64,000 bases of DNA from a virus. The stretch spans positions 6,010 to 70,009 of the IMG/VR virus record IMGVR_UViG_3300030106_005057; one strand, written 5' to 3'. Positions within the stretch are counted from its first letter, which is position 1, and the number at the start of each line of letters is the position of its first letter. Made by a program: the position numbers and the translations under genes. The notes under the pieces were generated by a model that was not told where the DNA came from, made no database searches, and saw only the letters and a program-made list of their open reading frames with translations. Positions 5,651 through 15,003 of this stretch are shown one piece after another.

Positions 5651-7090
5651 ATGCTAAATGATTTACCAGCAGAAAGAGCAATCTTAGCAGGCATATTTAG
5701 ATATGGAGCTGAGGCTTATTATGATGTTGCAGACATTGTAACAGAGTCGTCGTTTACAGACGAGTCTAATGTGGTCTTATTTTCATGCATGAAGCATGTG
5801 CTTGAAACAGATGACTCTCGCTCTCTAGATGCCCCTACAATGATGTCCGCTGCAAAAGAACTTGGGTTCTCAGACTTCTTTAATACACAAGAAGTTCAAC
5901 ATATGTCTTCTGTGATAAAGTTTCCGGTACTGTTGGAAAACTTAAGAAAGTTTGGAGCAAAGGTCAGGAAGCTAGAAATAGCTAGGATGATGTACGACCA
6001 ACTTGATCTAACTAAAGAAAGGTATCTTGAGATTAAAGGTGATGAACCTATTGCCAAGATACTAGGGATAGCTGAAGATGCTGTAATGGATGTTACGTCT
6101 GTGATAGCTGGTGAGGACGAATCCCCTACACAGATGTTTGATGATGTCGAAGCCCATCTAGAAGAGCTTGCAGAAGACTCAGTTGATCAGATAGGTATAG
6201 CAACGGGCTTTCCAAGGTATGACTTCTCTATTGGGGGTGGTCTCAGAAAAGGCACAGTAAATGTTATTGGGGCTCGACCTAAGACTGGAAAAACTCTTCT
6301 TGCAGACAATATGGGAATACATATTGCAAAAGAAGGAACTCCAGTACTCAACTTAGATACTGAGATGAGGAAGGAAGACCATCAACATAGAATGATGGCG
6401 ATGCTCTCTGGCGTTCCAATTAACGACATTGAAACGGGTAAGTTTGCTGATGATCCAGCCAAAAAGAAAAAGGTTATGGATGCGGCAAGAGAGATAAAAG
6501 ATATACCATATTATTTTAAGACTATTGGTGGCGCCTCTTTTGAAGAACAGGTTGCCGTCATGAGAAGATGGATTAGTAGGGTTGTAGGACTAAATGATAA
6601 GGGCAAGGCAAATGATTGTGTGATTATATATGATTACCTTAAACTTATGGACTCAAGTGAGATCAAAGGAGACATGAAAGAATTCCAAATTCTTGGCTTC
6701 ATGATCACAGCCCTACATAATCTATCTCTTAAGTATGAAGTCCCAATTTTAACTTTTATCCAGTTGAATAGAGATGGGATAACAAAGGAAAGCACCGATA
6801 CTGCGTCTGGTTCTGATAGGATAATTTGGCTATGTTCTAACTTCAGTATATATAAGCATAAGTCTGATGAAGAGATAGCTAAGGATGGTCCTGAGAATGG
6901 CAACAGGAAGCTTGTCCCTCTGATTGCAAGGCACGGAGAGGGACTTGATTATGGGGACTATATTAACGTAGAACTTACTGGCAAAATCGGTAAAGTCACC
7001 GAAGGGCAGACTGCGTTTGAACTTGACAGTGGTGTAAGCGCCACAGAAGATGGAGAACTTTTTGATGACTCAGAAGATGTCGCATTCTAA
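5651..7090 (+). CDS. dnaB: DnaB-type replicative helicase
   Basis: About 479 residues with the two-domain DnaB layout: an N-terminal helical domain beginning LPAERAILAGIFR, a linker, and a RecA-like motor starting near residue 185 with GFPRYDFSIGGGLRKG. The Walker A is GARPKTGKT (about residues 207-215) and the Walker B strand is CVIIYDYLKLM; FIQLNRDG matches the DnaB H3 Gln motif. It should unwind the fork as a hexamer together with the primase encoded next. ATG 5651 is chosen over the in-frame ATG 5639 because it just follows the upstream stop and removes only four non-conserved residues. The acidic tail (DDSEDVAF) overlaps the primase start. Confidence 0.92.
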   Translation: MLNDLPAERAILAGIFRYGAEAYYDVADIVTESSFTDESNVVLFSCMKHVLETDDSRSLDAPTMMSAAKELGFSDFFNTQEVQHMSSVIKFPVLLENLRKFGAKVRKLEIARMMYDQLDLTKERYLEIKGDEPIAKILGIAEDAVMDVTSVIAGEDESPTQMFDDVEAHLEELAEDSVDQIGIATGFPRYDFSIGGGLRKGTVNVIGARPKTGKTLLADNMGIHIAKEGTPVLNLDTEMRKEDHQHRMMAMLSGVPINDIETGKFADDPAKKKKVMDAAREIKDIPYYFKTIGGASFEEQVAVMRRWISRVVGLNDKGKANDCVIIYDYLKLMDSSEIKGDMKEFQILGFMITALHNLSLKYEVPILTFIQLNRDGITKESTDTASGSDRIIWLCSNFSIYKHKSDEEIAKDGPENGNRKLVPLIARHGEGLDYGDYINVELTGKIGKVTEGQTAFELDSGVSATEDGELFDDSEDVAF

Positions 7091-9204: not shown

Positions 9205-10241
9205 TGAGTATTCCAATTGTTTACTTTAGAAGTAGCTCTTTCAATTCGCATAGGATGTGCCCTATGCAATATTATCACGAATACACTTTAGGGTGGAGGG
9301 GAAAGTCAGGGAAGAAGGCAGACAAAGGAACAATCGTTCATAAAGTGCTTGAGCTTGCTGCGTTGTGTAAAAAGGCGCTTCAGGAGGGGTACGAGATATT
9401 CGAAGACAGTGAAATAGGAAAGATTGAAACATCCAACTATGATCCAGAGTATCTAGATGAGATTATAGACAAGGTCTATGAGTATTACACTTCTAGAACT
9501 ACGCATCACGACTGGAAGCCTCTTGACCTCAAGCACTGTCGAAAGTGGGTCTGGAAAATATTTAATGATGACAATGGCTTCTTTGATCCTAAGAACAGAC
9601 TTGTCGTAGACGCAGAACCGCATTTTGATTTTGAAATAGAAGAAGAGTGGGCGAAGTACAGTTACACTTTAGATGACGGAACTACCCTTGATGGGAATCT
9701 ATCCCTTAAAGGCACGATAGATCTCATTACTGATGTTGGTGACGATACTTATGAAGTCATTGATTGGAAGACTGGTCGTAGGCTAGACTGGGCCACTGGG
9801 AAAGAAAAGACGCCAGCGAAACTGCAGAACGATCCTCAGCTTAGAATGTATCATCTTGCTGTCAAGAAGCTATATCCTCATGTAAAGTCTTTCTTAATAA
9901 CAATACACTTCATGAATGACGGAGGCCCTTTTACGTTACACTTCCAAGATAGTGATATTGAAGAAACTATGGAGATGATAAAGGCAAAATTTGAAGTAAT
10001 AAAGGAAACTGAACGCCCTCAGCAGATAAAAAGTTGGAAATGTAGCAAGTTGTGTTCTGCTGGAAAGACCACTTATGATGACACTCATGTAGATACGATG
10101 TACAACATATTTGGCGCCCCACTAACTAAATGCGAACAGACCATGACTATGATTAAAGAAAATGGTATAGAGTGGGTAACGGGCAACTGTATGTCTCCCG
10201 ACCACGCTATAGGGAAATATAAAGCTCCGGGAGAAGTATGA
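9204..10241 (+). CDS. Cas4/RecB-like PD-(D/E)XK exonuclease
   Basis: The 345-residue protein matches the PDDEXK_1/Cas4 family. An N-terminal SSSFNSHRMCPMQYYHEY carries the first Cys (C19). GTIVHKVLE is the family His motif, GTIDLI supplies D173, and YEVIDWKTG gives D187 and K189, then QLRMYHLAV. A C-terminal cysteine group (WKCSKLC; TKCEQ; GNC) could complete an iron-sulfur cluster with C19, as in Cas4 and AddB. Such phage enzymes act in DNA end-processing for recombination. No CRISPR genes are nearby, so adaptation is not implied. It overlaps both neighbours by a few bases. Confidence 0.87.
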   Translation: MSIPIVYFRSSSFNSHRMCPMQYYHEYTLGWRGKSGKKADKGTIVHKVLELAALCKKALQEGYEIFEDSEIGKIETSNYDPEYLDEIIDKVYEYYTSRTTHHDWKPLDLKHCRKWVWKIFNDDNGFFDPKNRLVVDAEPHFDFEIEEEWAKYSYTLDDGTTLDGNLSLKGTIDLITDVGDDTYEVIDWKTGRRLDWATGKEKTPAKLQNDPQLRMYHLAVKKLYPHVKSFLITIHFMNDGGPFTLHFQDSDIEETMEMIKAKFEVIKETERPQQIKSWKCSKLCSAGKTTYDDTHVDTMYNIFGAPLTKCEQTMTMIKENGIEWVTGNCMSPDHAIGKYKAPGEV

Positions 10242-10783
10242 TAAAGCTACCTTTTAATGACGCTATGATAGCAAGTGCTAGAGAGAAGGCTATGTCTCTA
10301 GGATCAATAAATAATTCTATCCTGAAGGGCGGAGGTAATATAGCTGGGTACTTAGGAGAGGAGGCTTTAGCACCATATGTGGGAGCAAAGATTGTAAGTA
10401 ACAACAGAGGTCTTGATAAATATAACCATGATCTTCTTCTAGAATGTGGTCATAGACTTGAGGTAAAGACAAAAAGAAGGACAGTCTCTCCAAGATCGCA
10501 TTATGATGTATCAATAGCGGAAACAAGCAAGCATCAGAAACCAGACCTATATGGGTTTATAAGCTTAGAGTTTGACAGATGCACTAAAAGTCATCCTAAG
10601 AAATATTATGGCCTAAAAAATATATGGTTGTGCGGCTTTATGGGATCTTTTGAGTATTGGGAAAGGGCTTCTCTCTGGGAAAGTGGGAGAATAGACAAAA
10701 CAAATAGCTTCAAGACTCACGTTAACATGTATAATTTACCTATAAGAGAACTACATGATAGCATTTGGGAATTGATAGAATGA
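10238..10783 (+). CDS. Putative PD-(D/E)XK endonuclease
   Basis: This 181-residue protein has a compact nuclease-like core. YLGEEALAPYVG (a helix with an acidic residue) is followed by KYNHDLLL with D65 and HRLEVKTKRR with E75 and K77, the D...ExK signature. Further strands (HYDVSIAETSK; DLYGFISLEF) complete the fold. It overlaps the Cas4-like gene before it and the polymerase gene after it by four bases each, so it belongs to the replication and repair operon. Substrate unknown; a resolvase-like or restriction-like role are both possible. Confidence 0.7.
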   Translation: MIKLPFNDAMIASAREKAMSLGSINNSILKGGGNIAGYLGEEALAPYVGAKIVSNNRGLDKYNHDLLLECGHRLEVKTKRRTVSPRSHYDVSIAETSKHQKPDLYGFISLEFDRCTKSHPKKYYGLKNIWLCGFMGSFEYWERASLWESGRIDKTNSFKTHVNMYNLPIRELHDSIWELIE

Positions 10784-12657
10784 AATACGTACCGCTGCAT
10801 GTCCATAGCGAATATTCACTTTTAGATGGACTGTCACAAACAAAACATATTGCAAAAAGATTAGAGGAAATAGAGGTTGAGGCTTGTGCATTAACTGATC
10901 ACGGCACAGTTAGTGGGGCCATTGACTTCCATAAGACCATCTCTAAGGGTTTTAAGCCTATTCTTGGATGTGAGTTTTATATCAGCAATAGAGACGCTAC
11001 CGTAAAAGAACCTGATAATTCCAAACTTGCACATCAGGTTGTCTTAGCAAAAGATTTGCAAGGCTGGAAGAGTCTACTTTCTATGGTGTCGATATCAAAC
11101 AAAGTAGAGCACTTCTACCACAAGCCTAGACTGGGAACTGATTATTTCATGGAGCTTGCATCCAAGGGGGAAGGTTCTTTAGTATCTTTTAGTGGTCATC
11201 TAGGCTCTCGTTTAGCAAATGCCGTTGTAGACAATCCGAACTGGCAAAGTGACGGGATCAGAGAAGCGGAGAGACTACAGGAAGCATTCGGTAAGGGTAA
11301 TTTTTATATAGAAATACAGCTTATTGACTCTCTCATAAATGAGAAGGCAAAAGAAGTTGCTGAAAAACTTAGAGAGATTTCTAAGCTCACAAAAATACCC
11401 TGTGTAGCCACTCCAGATGCACATTACTGTAGGCGAGAAGATGCTCATGACCAAAGGGTCTTACTATGTACCTCAATGCGTAAAAGTATTGGTCAGGTAC
11501 AAACAGAATTGAAGCAAGGTAAGTCTCGATCTCTAGGAACATTTTTCAACTCAAACAACTATCATATTCCTAGCTATGAAGATATGAGAGATTTTCATAC
11601 CGAAGAAGAGCTGCAGCATACTGTTGACATAGCAAATATGTGCAGTCAATATGAAATTTTGGGTCCTCCAAACCCACCTGTATTCGACTCCCCAGACGGG
11701 ATGTCTCCGAATGACTACCTCAGACAATTATGTAGAGATGGTTGGTCTAGAAAGATGAGTCATATTGAGAAAGGCTCACTGTTCAGTGAGTACGGAGATA
11801 GGGTCAATAAAGAGATTAAAATTTTTACTGAGACTAATCTATCAAGCTATTTCCTTATTGTTAGAGATATTCTGAAGTATGCTGAGAGAAGAGGCTATCT
11901 CACAGGGCCCGGAAGAGGAAGTGCCGCCGGATGTATGGTTTCCTATCTTATGGATATTACCAAAATTGATCCTATGCGGCATGATTTAATTTTTGAGAGA
12001 TTTTACAATGCTGGACGAAATGCAGGTGGAAGAGTATCAATGCCTGATATTGATATTGATGTTCCTAAACAATCTAGGAATGATATTATAGATTATATCA
12101 AACAGAAGTATGGAGAGGATAATGTAGCCCAAATCGTTACTTTCCAAACTCTGAAAGGTCGGGCCGCGCTCAAGAGGGTCATGGCAGCTAGAGGCAATAT
12201 AGGTTTTAGTGAGCAAAATGCTATAACGTCTCATATCTTAGATGAAGCAAAGATCTCAGATGAACTACAGGATATGAAAGACGAGCTAGGAACTGCCTCT
12301 GTTATAACTTGGGCTCTTGAAAACAAGAAGGACAAACTGAAAGAGTGGTGCTATGTAGATGATAATGGAACACTGCAAGGTAAGTTTGCCAAGATATTTG
12401 AACAGGCCATTAGATTGGAAGATACAAAAATCATTCAATCTAAGCATGCGGCTGGCGTTGTTGTATCTCCTCAGCCTATATATGATGTATGCCCAATGGT
12501 CATAGACAAAGAAGGAAAGGGTCAACTAGCAGGATTTGAGGGTCCCTCATGTGAAGATGCTGGACTGCTTAAGCTTGATGTTCTTGGAATCAAAATGCTG
12601 GATAAGATTATGGAAATGCCTGATATTATAAAGAACACTTATAAAGTGCAGGTATAA
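10780..12657 (+). CDS. dnaE: DNA polymerase III alpha subunit, N-terminal half (PHP, palm, thumb)
   Basis: 625 residues covering the first half of a DnaE-type replicase. It opens with the PHP domain (PLHVHSEYSLLDG; LTDHGTVSG). The palm contains TGPGRGSAAGC and the catalytic PDIDID (Asp residues near 425 and 427), and the third catalytic Asp is about residue 600 in LLKLDVLGIK. The protein stops 25 residues later, exactly where bacterial DnaE passes from palm to fingers. The rest is encoded at 13366-15003, after an exonuclease gene. ATG 10780 overlaps the upstream TGA (ATGA); an in-frame TTG at 10765 is rejected because the PHP start lies after the ATG. No intein sequence is seen at the end. 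Confidence 0.92.
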   Translation: MKYVPLHVHSEYSLLDGLSQTKHIAKRLEEIEVEACALTDHGTVSGAIDFHKTISKGFKPILGCEFYISNRDATVKEPDNSKLAHQVVLAKDLQGWKSLLSMVSISNKVEHFYHKPRLGTDYFMELASKGEGSLVSFSGHLGSRLANAVVDNPNWQSDGIREAERLQEAFGKGNFYIEIQLIDSLINEKAKEVAEKLREISKLTKIPCVATPDAHYCRREDAHDQRVLLCTSMRKSIGQVQTELKQGKSRSLGTFFNSNNYHIPSYEDMRDFHTEEELQHTVDIANMCSQYEILGPPNPPVFDSPDGMSPNDYLRQLCRDGWSRKMSHIEKGSLFSEYGDRVNKEIKIFTETNLSSYFLIVRDILKYAERRGYLTGPGRGSAAGCMVSYLMDITKIDPMRHDLIFERFYNAGRNAGGRVSMPDIDIDVPKQSRNDIIDYIKQKYGEDNVAQIVTFQTLKGRAALKRVMAARGNIGFSEQNAITSHILDEAKISDELQDMKDELGTASVITWALENKKDKLKEWCYVDDNGTLQGKFAKIFEQAIRLEDTKIIQSKHAAGVVVSPQPIYDVCPMVIDKEGKGQLAGFEGPSCEDAGLLKLDVLGIKMLDKIMEMPDIIKNTYKVQV

Positions 12658-12691
12658 TATATTATAGGATATATTACAAGAGGAAAAAATA

Positions 12692-13369
12692 ATGATAAAT
12701 AAAAGATGGATTATCGTATTTGATTTAGAGACTGACGGGACTGATCCGTACAGTTGCAACCCAGTAGAGTTAGCGGCTGTTCCTGTTGACCCCAGAACTT
12801 TGGAGATTAAGGAAGCTCAGTCGTTTAGGGTTACTATTAAGCCAGATGGAATCGACGATGACGAATATTTTACAAAGGCGAGGCAGGATACGATAGCTTG
12901 GCACGCAAAGACAAGAGGAGTTGAGTCAGAAGATATTATTAAAGAGTGGAAGGATGGTCAGACGGAAAAAGTCGCTTGGAAAAACTTTATGTCCTACTGC
13001 TCCAAGTATGAAGTTGATAAGAGGCCCGGACAGTGGTACACAGAGCCTATCCCTGCAGGGTACAACATTATTGGTTTTGACTTGCCAATCCTAAAAAGAC
13101 TATCGGAAAAATATAAAACAAAGATGCCTCTATCTACGGTTACTAAAATAGATATGATGGATATCTTATTCACTTGGTTCGAGAATCTCGACGAGCCTAA
13201 CAGTATGAAGCTTGATACATTCAGAGACTTCTTCGGCCTTAAAGCTAGTGCACAAGCACATGAAGCTTTGTCAGATACTATTGATGAGGCTAAGCTAATG
13301 GTCAAGTTTTTGAAGTTCCATAGAAAACAAGCAAGTGTAAGTAAATTTAAGGGCGCGTTCAGTAAATGA
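12692..13369 (+). CDS. dnaQ: DEDDh 3'-5' exonuclease (epsilon/DnaQ-like)
   Basis: The 225-residue protein is an RNase H-fold exonuclease. IVFDLETDGTDP is Exo I (the D and E of DEDD), NIIGFDLPILKRL is Exo II, and AHEALSDTIDEA is Exo III with the His of the DEDDh subtype. Such enzymes proofread polymerase errors, in bacteria as the epsilon partner of DnaE. Its place between the two DnaE halves makes that role here very likely. It has its own start region: a 34-base gap with AAGAGGA before ATG 12692. Its TGA overlaps the ATG of the second polymerase gene. Confidence 0.88.
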   Translation: MINKRWIIVFDLETDGTDPYSCNPVELAAVPVDPRTLEIKEAQSFRVTIKPDGIDDDEYFTKARQDTIAWHAKTRGVESEDIIKEWKDGQTEKVAWKNFMSYCSKYEVDKRPGQWYTEPIPAGYNIIGFDLPILKRLSEKYKTKMPLSTVTKIDMMDILFTWFENLDEPNSMKLDTFRDFFGLKASAQAHEALSDTIDEAKLMVKFLKFHRKQASVSKFKGAFSK

Positions 13370-15003
13370 TAACTCTAGATTGCGGATGTCAGTTTGAACA
13401 AGACGATGAAGGTAGAATTATCTTCTGCACTGATATAACAAAAATGAATATGGACTGTCCTAAGACTTGGGACTTGATATGTGAAGGTAACACCAAGGGA
13501 GTTTTCCAACTTGAGTCTCAGCTTGGAAGATCTCTGGCAAAACAGGCAAAGCCAAGAAACATAGAAGAACTTTCAGATCTAATCGCTATCATGCGTCCCG
13601 GATGTCTTGAGGCGGTAGTCAAGGGAAAGACTCTTACTATGCACTACATTGACAGAAAGCATAAGGTAGATTCTGTTGAGTACTTTCATGAAGCGTTGGA
13701 GCCTATCCTAAAAAGCACTTATGGGATTCTTGTATTTCAAGAGCAGGCTATTCTTATTGCCCAGCAGATCGCTGGGTTTGACTTGCAAGAGGCAGATATT
13801 CTTCGCAAAGCAATTGGCAAGAAAAAAGCTAGTGTTATGGCAGAAGTTAAAAAGTCTTTCATAGAAAAATCCGAGGCTAGAGGTATTGTAACTACAGAAG
13901 AGGCAAAAGAAATATTCTCTTGGATTGAAAAATCTCAAAGATACTCTTTCAATAAGTCTCACTCTGTTAGTTATGCTTATAATGCATATCTTACGGCATA
14001 TGCAAAAGCTCATTTCCCACATGAGTTTTTTACTTCGTATCTGAAGCATGCAGTAGGAAAGCCAGACACTTTTATTGAAGTTCAGGAGCTTGTTAATAAT
14101 GCAAAAATAATGGGAATCAATACTATGCCTCCTAGTATAATTCATATGAATGAAGAATTTGAACTGATTGAGCAGCATCCAAGATATGGCTTAACAAATG
14201 TGAAAGGAGTAGGCTCTTCAGTATTTAAAAAAATGGTGCAGTATATGGATAGTGAGTCCATAGATCCTAGAAATTGTGATTGGTCTTGCTTTCTGATATT
14301 AGTATCTCCAAAAGTTAACAAGAAAGCTTTTGAGAATCTTATACTAGCAGGAGCATTTGATTGTTTTAAAATTCCAAGGTCTACGATGCAACATAATTTT
14401 AATATCATCAAGGAACTTAGCAAAAGAGAAATCGCTTGGCTAATAGACTACAAGAAGAACAACTACGAAAAAACAACAGAAGAGTGCTTGCAAGAAATGA
14501 TTAACTGTTCTCAGGGCAAAGATAAGAATAGGCCGATATTCAGAAGAGATAGATGCCCTATTGTTGAAGATTTGTTGAGAGCTTACAACAATCCCGGATA
14601 TGAGCTCTTCGATTCTCCTTCTTGGCTCTCAAAGCAAGAACAAGAACTGTTGGGTATAGCCTTGACATGCAATAAAGTTGATGAGTACAATACCGATAGG
14701 GCGAATTGTACGTGCAAAGAGTTTATAGATGGCTTCGAAAGTCAATATGGAGCTGTTATAGCTGTGCAGATTGAATCTGTGAGAGAGTGGAAAATAAAGA
14801 AGGGTAGAGCGAAGGGGAAAAGTATGGGATTCATTACAGCTGGTGACACTAGTTGTATTCTAGATAATATAACTGCATTCTCAGACGAATGGGAAAAGTA
14901 TAGAAATTTGCTCTATGAGGGCAATACAGTCCTTCTTAGAGGGAGCCGAGACAAAAATAGAGGAAGTTTTTTGGTAAAAAGAGTTGAACAACTAACAAGT
15001 TAG
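13366..15003 (+). CDS. dnaE: DNA polymerase III alpha subunit, C-terminal half (fingers to OB fold)
   Basis: 545 residues that complete the DnaE chain begun at 10780. After a leader with a Cys pair (LDCGCQFEQDDEG) it resumes in the fingers: WDLICEGNTKGVFQLES aligns with the DnaE FDMLQ...TTAVFQLES block, followed by IAIMRPGCLE, LVFQEQAI and YSFNKSHSVSYAYNAY. A helix-hairpin-helix-like part (YGLTNVKGVGSSVF) and an OB-fold end (GKSMGFITAGDT; LLRGSRDKNRGSFLVKRVEQL) follow. The two halves add to 1170 residues, close to intact bacterial DnaE. The catalytic Asp residues are all in the other half, so the two proteins must associate to work. It starts by ATGA overlap with the exonuclease gene. Confidence 0.92.
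   Translation: MITLDCGCQFEQDDEGRIIFCTDITKMNMDCPKTWDLICEGNTKGVFQLESQLGRSLAKQAKPRNIEELSDLIAIMRPGCLEAVVKGKTLTMHYIDRKHKVDSVEYFHEALEPILKSTYGILVFQEQAILIAQQIAGFDLQEADILRKAIGKKKASVMAEVKKSFIEKSEARGIVTTEEAKEIFSWIEKSQRYSFNKSHSVSYAYNAYLTAYAKAHFPHEFFTSYLKHAVGKPDTFIEVQELVNNAKIMGINTMPPSIIHMNEEFELIEQHPRYGLTNVKGVGSSVFKKMVQYMDSESIDPRNCDWSCFLILVSPKVNKKAFENLILAGAFDCFKIPRSTMQHNFNIIKELSKREIAWLIDYKKNNYEKTTEECLQEMINCSQGKDKNRPIFRRDRCPIVEDLLRAYNNPGYELFDSPSWLSKQEQELLGIALTCNKVDEYNTDRANCTCKEFIDGFESQYGAVIAVQIESVREWKIKKGRAKGKSMGFITAGDTSCILDNITAFSDEWEKYRNLLYEGNTVLLRGSRDKNRGSFLVKRVEQLTS

Follow-up and report, generated by a model that had tools for sequence, protein, structure and literature searches.

Apart from the split cases set out below, replicases of the C family, such as the DnaE-type alpha subunits of DNA polymerase III (Pol III), are to our knowledge single-chain enzymes. 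Here we describe a viral C-family polymerase encoded in two genes, with palm and fingers on separate chains and a gene for a DEDDh exonuclease between them, in a 64,000-nucleotide stretch of DNA (the window; positions 6010–70009 of the 78,994-base virus record IMGVR_UViG_3300030106_005057). The polymerase shares its domain order, catalytic residues, fold and the TIGR00594 profile, at about 30–35% identity, with intact Pol III alpha of Thermus (2hpi, 4iqj), E. coli and Mycobacterium tuberculosis (Mtb; 7pu7), and with the intact phage DnaEs of Moorella phage MTATph1, Streptomyces phage Sujidade and 31 of 37 relatives of MT835750. These intact enzymes differ in being one chain, in lacking the Cys-Gly-Cys (CGC) hairpin that begins the second half here, and in having no exonuclease gene inside.

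Split DnaE is also known from isolated phages. The break lies at about residues 413–420, before the first two catalytic aspartates, in phiST, Larrie and Jayan; Satyr and phi116 are broken at the same site, with a GIY-YIG-like gene between the pieces, and Weasels2 and JDawG between PHP and palm. Like the window polymerase, these are two-gene C-family enzymes from which nothing essential is missing, but they have other breakpoints, no interposed exonuclease and no CGC extension. In our tree they are scattered (4 changes) beside intact relatives, indicating separate origins.

In group 2.2 jumbo phages, a minimal split Pol III has been described, limited to the core catalytic and template-binding domains, whose catalytic core is divided between two proteins that are believed to reconstitute it (PMC7824862); there, the genes are far apart, PHP and other domains are absent and a family B polymerase is present alongside, whereas the window polymerase keeps the full set from PHP to OB. 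The split halves gp43A and gp43B of PolB from the T4-like Aeromonas phage 25 co-purify and are active (PMC2988022), but this is a family B enzyme whose sporadic split is tied to an untranslated spacer or a homing endonuclease. Cyanobacterial DnaE is also encoded in two genes, but its break lies at YSFNKSHS, which is intact here, and its pieces are rejoined by protein splicing.

Among 50,697 phage records, the best match to the N half was 34.5% identical, and the exonuclease had one weak match only. None of the isolates in the phage collection combined a palm/fingers split with an interposed exonuclease, those examined being intact or split elsewhere. Partial-DnaE families in PHROG were considered as known cases of a palm/fingers split and rejected, since the fetched isolates break elsewhere. 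In the open-access literature, we found no account of this exact split (subscription journals were outside the scope). Split phage DnaE is thus already known at other sites; what is new here is the breakpoint, the interposed exonuclease, the added hairpin and the deep, clade-wide fixation.

A complete polymerase in two genes

Pfam profiles identified PHP (1.8e-31) and DNA_pol3_alpha (7.3e-69) in the N half, and DNA_pol3_finger (1.1e-45) together with HHH_6 in the C half. When aligned to Thermus alpha, the N half reaches residue 640 and the C half picks up at 644; on the NCBIfam profile TIGR00594 (Pol III alpha), positions 1–575 are covered by the N half and 580–1014 by the C half. Because the halves abut in both comparisons, the polymerase is complete, and its break is, to within a few residues, at a single point. 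The order of parts is that of Pol III alpha, with PHP followed by a pol-beta-like palm carrying PDIDID and a third aspartate, and with fingers, helix-hairpin-helix (HhH) and OB regions after the palm; the feature of a DnaE-type polymerase that is missing is the single polypeptide, which is split in 153/153 sequences of the virus group described below.

The third catalytic aspartate, Asp600, lies in LLKLDVLG only 25 residues from the end of the N half, so that one chain holds the palm with all the catalytic aspartates, and the other holds the fingers. D423, D425 and D600 are invariant in the N halves of relatives (94/94). The interposed gene matches RNase_T (8.5e-9), and its DEDDh set (D11, E13, D130, H190, D195) is invariant in 96/96 exonucleases. 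A first-pass annotation, made from the letters of the window alone, had described a 625-residue first half with PHP, palm and three aspartates, a DEDDh exonuclease gene, and a second half starting at the fingers, the halves summing to about 1170 residues, near the size of intact DnaE, with no intein remnants and a break distinct from that of cyanobacteria. All of this agrees with our results, including the sum (1170 amino acids) and the absence of splicing fragments.

AlphaFold2 models, built with a 50-member alignment for each half, reached mean predicted local distance difference test (pLDDT) scores of 90.2 (N half) and 91.0 (C half). In Foldseek searches, Thermus Pol III alpha was the best match to both models (N half, 2hpi, E 1.8e-44, TMq 0.77; C half, E 2.5e-22), with Mtb DnaE1 matching the C half at TMq 0.67. 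Both halves are therefore predicted, with high model confidence, to fold as fragments of Pol III alpha. The N-half model ends in the strand bearing Asp600 and a helix (605–620), while its residues 410–417 form a low-confidence loop that coincides with the 413–420 break site of isolated phages; the C-half model shows OB-type strands at 463–542.

The C half also carries a 22-residue CGC extension upstream of the segment that aligns to Thermus alpha, modelled as an N-terminal beta-hairpin preceding the first fingers helix (32–39). The C6-G-C8 motif occurs together with C31 in 73/77 C halves; three of the four without it also lack C31, and the remaining one (L236) may have a mis-called start. This joint loss suggests a metal site, and the conserved hairpin gained by the C half looks like a metal-binding element.

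Distribution and persistence of the split

We scanned IMG/VR with single proteins, with alignments of all three proteins and with the most divergent members, classed the loci by open reading frame (ORF) and profile, and removed identical sequences, leaving 153 viral sequences with both halves. The halves lie in separate ORFs, with the exonuclease between them, in 153/153. Identity of the C half to that of the window runs from 100% down to about 41%, and the group is uncultivated and mostly marine. Scans with the C half, N half, exonuclease and divergent members found no intact polymerase inside the clade, and a scan based on L046 returned outgroup sequences only (31 intact, 6 split at other sites). 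Three contigs from public metagenome-assembled genomes, two assigned to Lokiarchaeota and one to Flavobacteriales (L248, L249, L250), have the same arrangement and are probably misbinned viral contigs.

A tree of 53 polymerases recovered the split clade as one group (SH-aLRT, an approximate likelihood ratio test, 100), separate from the intact DnaEs of phages and bacteria. Its stem is long (1.26 changes per column); the outgroup branches are also long and the exact sister is uncertain. The split is clade-wide and ancient, probably with a single origin.

When the window was compared with eight relatives, all three genes showed differences at 0.70–0.89 of synonymous and 0.02–0.20 of non-synonymous sites; these are raw proportions of differences, as pairwise synonymous divergence (dS) was saturated and omega mostly not computable. 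By this sequence measure, each of the three genes is under its own purifying selection. It is against this background that decay has to be considered, in which the gene would have been split by mutation or insertion, the halves would be relics and another enzyme would replicate the genome. Splits of phage replication genes do often follow insertion of a homing endonuclease (Satyr, phi116; T4-type phages, PMC2988022), but the window has no homing endonuclease at the break and the record no PolA, the catalytic residues are invariant in N halves and exonucleases alike, and selection has persisted while synonymous sites saturated. Decay is refuted by this conservation, and we give it next to no credence.

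A second alternative is that the halves are joined into one alpha chain by a trans-splicing intein, a group I or II intron, or recoding. DnaE is a classic host of split inteins, and apparent ones occur in other viral DnaEs at FN/SH (L370, L375) and within this clade at GPGRG/SAAG (L339). At the palm/fingers break, by contrast, intein halves would lack room throughout the clade, with 19–34 residues after Asp600 and 33–58 before the Gln of FQLES, and the extension of the C half is the conserved 22-residue CGC element, without intein residues. Rfam gave no intron match at E<=1 over 10–16 kb. The window halves share a frame modulo 3, but this was rejected as a sign of joining, since the frame relation varies among relatives. 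Between the halves lie changing, unrelated genes that together reach about 4.8 kb at most, and because these differ from virus to virus an intron, an intein, pseudogenes and an assembly artefact are ruled out; a frameshift or assembly error is further excluded by the 153 distinct sequences with the same arrangement. We consider joining by any of these routes very improbable. The first-pass annotation had named an assembly artefact as what could overturn its reading, which is not borne out, and had suggested looking for the gene order in related phages and for homologues in phage proteomes, with the outcomes given above; its proposal of a two-chain enzyme is strongly supported by the universality of the split in the clade, purifying selection, intact catalytic residues, confidently predicted folds and the lack of any joining mechanism in our searches.

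The intein-like sequences elsewhere are easily recognised, and none such is seen at the palm/fingers break. L370 (5953–9749) and L375 (5917–10644), which belong to another, mostly intact group of viral DnaEs, have apparent split inteins with N parts beginning CLAPDNT and CLVPETT and C parts ending TSN/SH and SGN/SH, respectively. In L375 the polymerase lies in three genes (PHP, palm-fingers and the rest), and the intein halves are separated by a frame that may be homing-endonuclease-like. L339 (2754–5093) belongs to this clade and has a further break, inside the N half, where intein-like sequence occurs at GPGRG/SAAG (CFVPETNIKMSDG ... VEGIGVHN); judging from its sequence, this polymerase would be assembled from three pieces.

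The DNA between the halves spans about 0.7 to 4.9 kb. Inspection by eye found ORFs there resembling uracil-DNA glycosylase, MazG, GNAT, ThyX, SNase or other nucleases, cytidylyltransferase and glutamate dehydrogenase (Table 1); this variety is ordinary operon gene shuffling, not an intron.

A probable two-chain enzyme and the interposed exonuclease

Taken together, these data make it highly probable that the virus encodes a C-family replicative polymerase as two obligate, non-covalently assembling subunits; we infer their assembly and activity, docking of the exonuclease, metal binding, and use as the virus's own replicase. The N subunit would supply PHP, thumb and catalytic palm, and the C subunit, by analogy with characterised alpha subunits, the fingers that hold the incoming nucleotide and template, together with the HhH and OB regions that bind DNA. 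Lying in the connector that follows the Asp600 strand and helix, the break falls at a natural domain boundary, where a split should be tolerable. The acquired CxC...C hairpin probably binds metal and caps or docks the new end of the C subunit. The DEDDh exonuclease would most likely be the proofreading subunit, its overlapping stop and the C-half start keeping the two products at a constant ratio.

Neither PolA nor a beta clamp was found in the 78,994-base record; it is therefore probable that the virus uses this enzyme as its own replicase, which would work with a host clamp or with none. Several points weigh against this picture. The missing clamp is one; the record may be incomplete, and another polymerase may exist; the exonuclease is only distant from known proofreaders, its best profiles being exodeoxyribonuclease entries and PolC-type exonuclease, none of them strong; and PHP is intact in most clade members and could be the proofreading site itself. 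The lack of a sliding clamp, and the lower processivity that two-chain enzymes might have, would suit a repair or translesion enzyme acting beside the host replisome. However, the gene stands in order with DnaB helicase, Toprim primase, deoxynucleoside monophosphate (dNMP) kinase and RecA, a replication module, and phage C-family polymerases in similar neighbourhoods are usually regarded as replicases; we therefore judge a primarily non-replicative role improbable.

C-family polymerases are normally partnered by fused or adjacent DnaQ-like exonucleases, and Pbunavirus has an exonuclease beside its DnaE. Here, the exonuclease is likely the proofreader of the two-chain polymerase, because it is always present and its active site is perfect even where PHP is degenerate, as in L012, L065 and L102. 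Its partnership is suggested by its location between the halves in every sequence and by the usual translational coupling, stop and C-half start overlapping or lying a few bases apart in most relatives; a three-protein complex would be consistent with both. Conversely, the two-chain polymerase may be real while the exonuclease is a co-transcribed ExoI-like nuclease that serves recombination or degrades host DNA, and PHP proofreads. The exonuclease matches profiles of ExoI, PolC-type exonuclease and DnaQ about equally weakly, including those of NCBIfam, and fits the N-terminal regions of exodeoxyribonuclease I about as closely as it fits any proofreader; most members of the clade retain their PHP ligands, and PDDEXK nuclease and RecA genes lie close by. 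Yet other neighbours vary while this gene never leaves its place, and the DEDDh set is complete where PHP has degenerated, which makes an ExoI-like role the less likely of the two.

A bolder proposal, which we hold to be unlikely, is an obligate heterotrimeric replicase with the exonuclease docked at or near the palm/fingers junction, the split being a functional hinge and not a harmless break; such a hinge could switch between synthesis and proofreading, or assembly could be controlled through the acquired metal-binding hairpin.

A core replication enzyme would thus have been run stably as two chains over long evolutionary time. A split through the region of the active site, fixed in at least 153 distinct viral sequences where other phage splits look sporadic, would offer a natural two-chain polymerase whose palm and fingers could be swapped or titrated, testing the weight of the palm-fingers linker in Pol III. 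It also marks out a large, uncultivated group of viruses without an isolate in the searched phage collection.

Gene layout and neighbouring genes

The N-half ORF opens with ATG and encodes 625 amino acids; an alternative TTG start at 10765 would add 5 more. The exonuclease ORF encodes 225 and the C-half ORF 545 amino acids, and all three are uninterrupted (Table 1).

Table 1. Features of the split polymerase locus in the window, and inter-half gaps with additional genes in relatives.
Feature	Position	Strand	Basis or remark
N half of C-family (DnaE-type) DNA polymerase: PHP, palm, thumb; catalytic Asp423, Asp425, Asp600; PHP metal ligands intact	10780..12657	+	Pfam, TIGR00594, alignment, model
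C-terminal 26 residues of N half: Asp600 strand, one helix (605–620), stop; break in palm-to-fingers connector	12577..12657	+	
Spacer, N half to exonuclease	12658..12691	+	34 nt here; 0 to ~1.8 kb in relatives, often with other ORFs
DEDDh 3'-5' exonuclease, probable proofreading subunit; D11, E13, D130, H190, D195	12692..13369	+	RNase_T, active-site residues
ATGA shared by the exonuclease stop and the C-half start	13366..13369	+	Translational coupling likely
N-terminal extension of C half: beta-hairpin, conserved C6-G-C8; partner C31 just downstream; not in intact DnaE	13366..13431	+	
C half of polymerase: fingers, tandem HhH region, OB fold	13366..15003	+	Pfam, TIGR00594, model
Gaps with additional (cargo) genes	L096:4490-4987, L102:4473-5027, L219:8038-9406, L237:8046-9724, L090:4041-6000, L084:5667-5996, L063:3561-3986		

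The polymerase module is accompanied by genes for DnaB, Toprim primase, dNMP kinase, a RecA-like protein and a sigma factor, and the PDDEXK nuclease gene is also near it. Nine large late-region proteins (27722–59125, minus strand) matched no family in PHROGs, indicating a great distance between this group's virion genes and those of known phages.

Small ORFs were also seen between N half and exonuclease in relatives. A conserved ORF of about 60 residues (F.DLAVG..F..NG..Y.KI.E.RVSCC) occurs there in a more distant subclade (L229:7872–8051, L241:7871–8056, L224:5944–6123 and others) and is possibly another small subunit. A 38-residue zinc-ribbon-like mini-ORF (CEVCG...CSQCG) lies at the same place in L003 (7210–7326) and is found in close relatives, not in the window. 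Directly upstream of the N half, the window encodes a 181-residue protein (10238–10783) with no Pfam or PHROG match; in L089 (5502–5999) a homologue separates the exonuclease gene from the C half, and the protein may be a nuclease belonging to the replication module.

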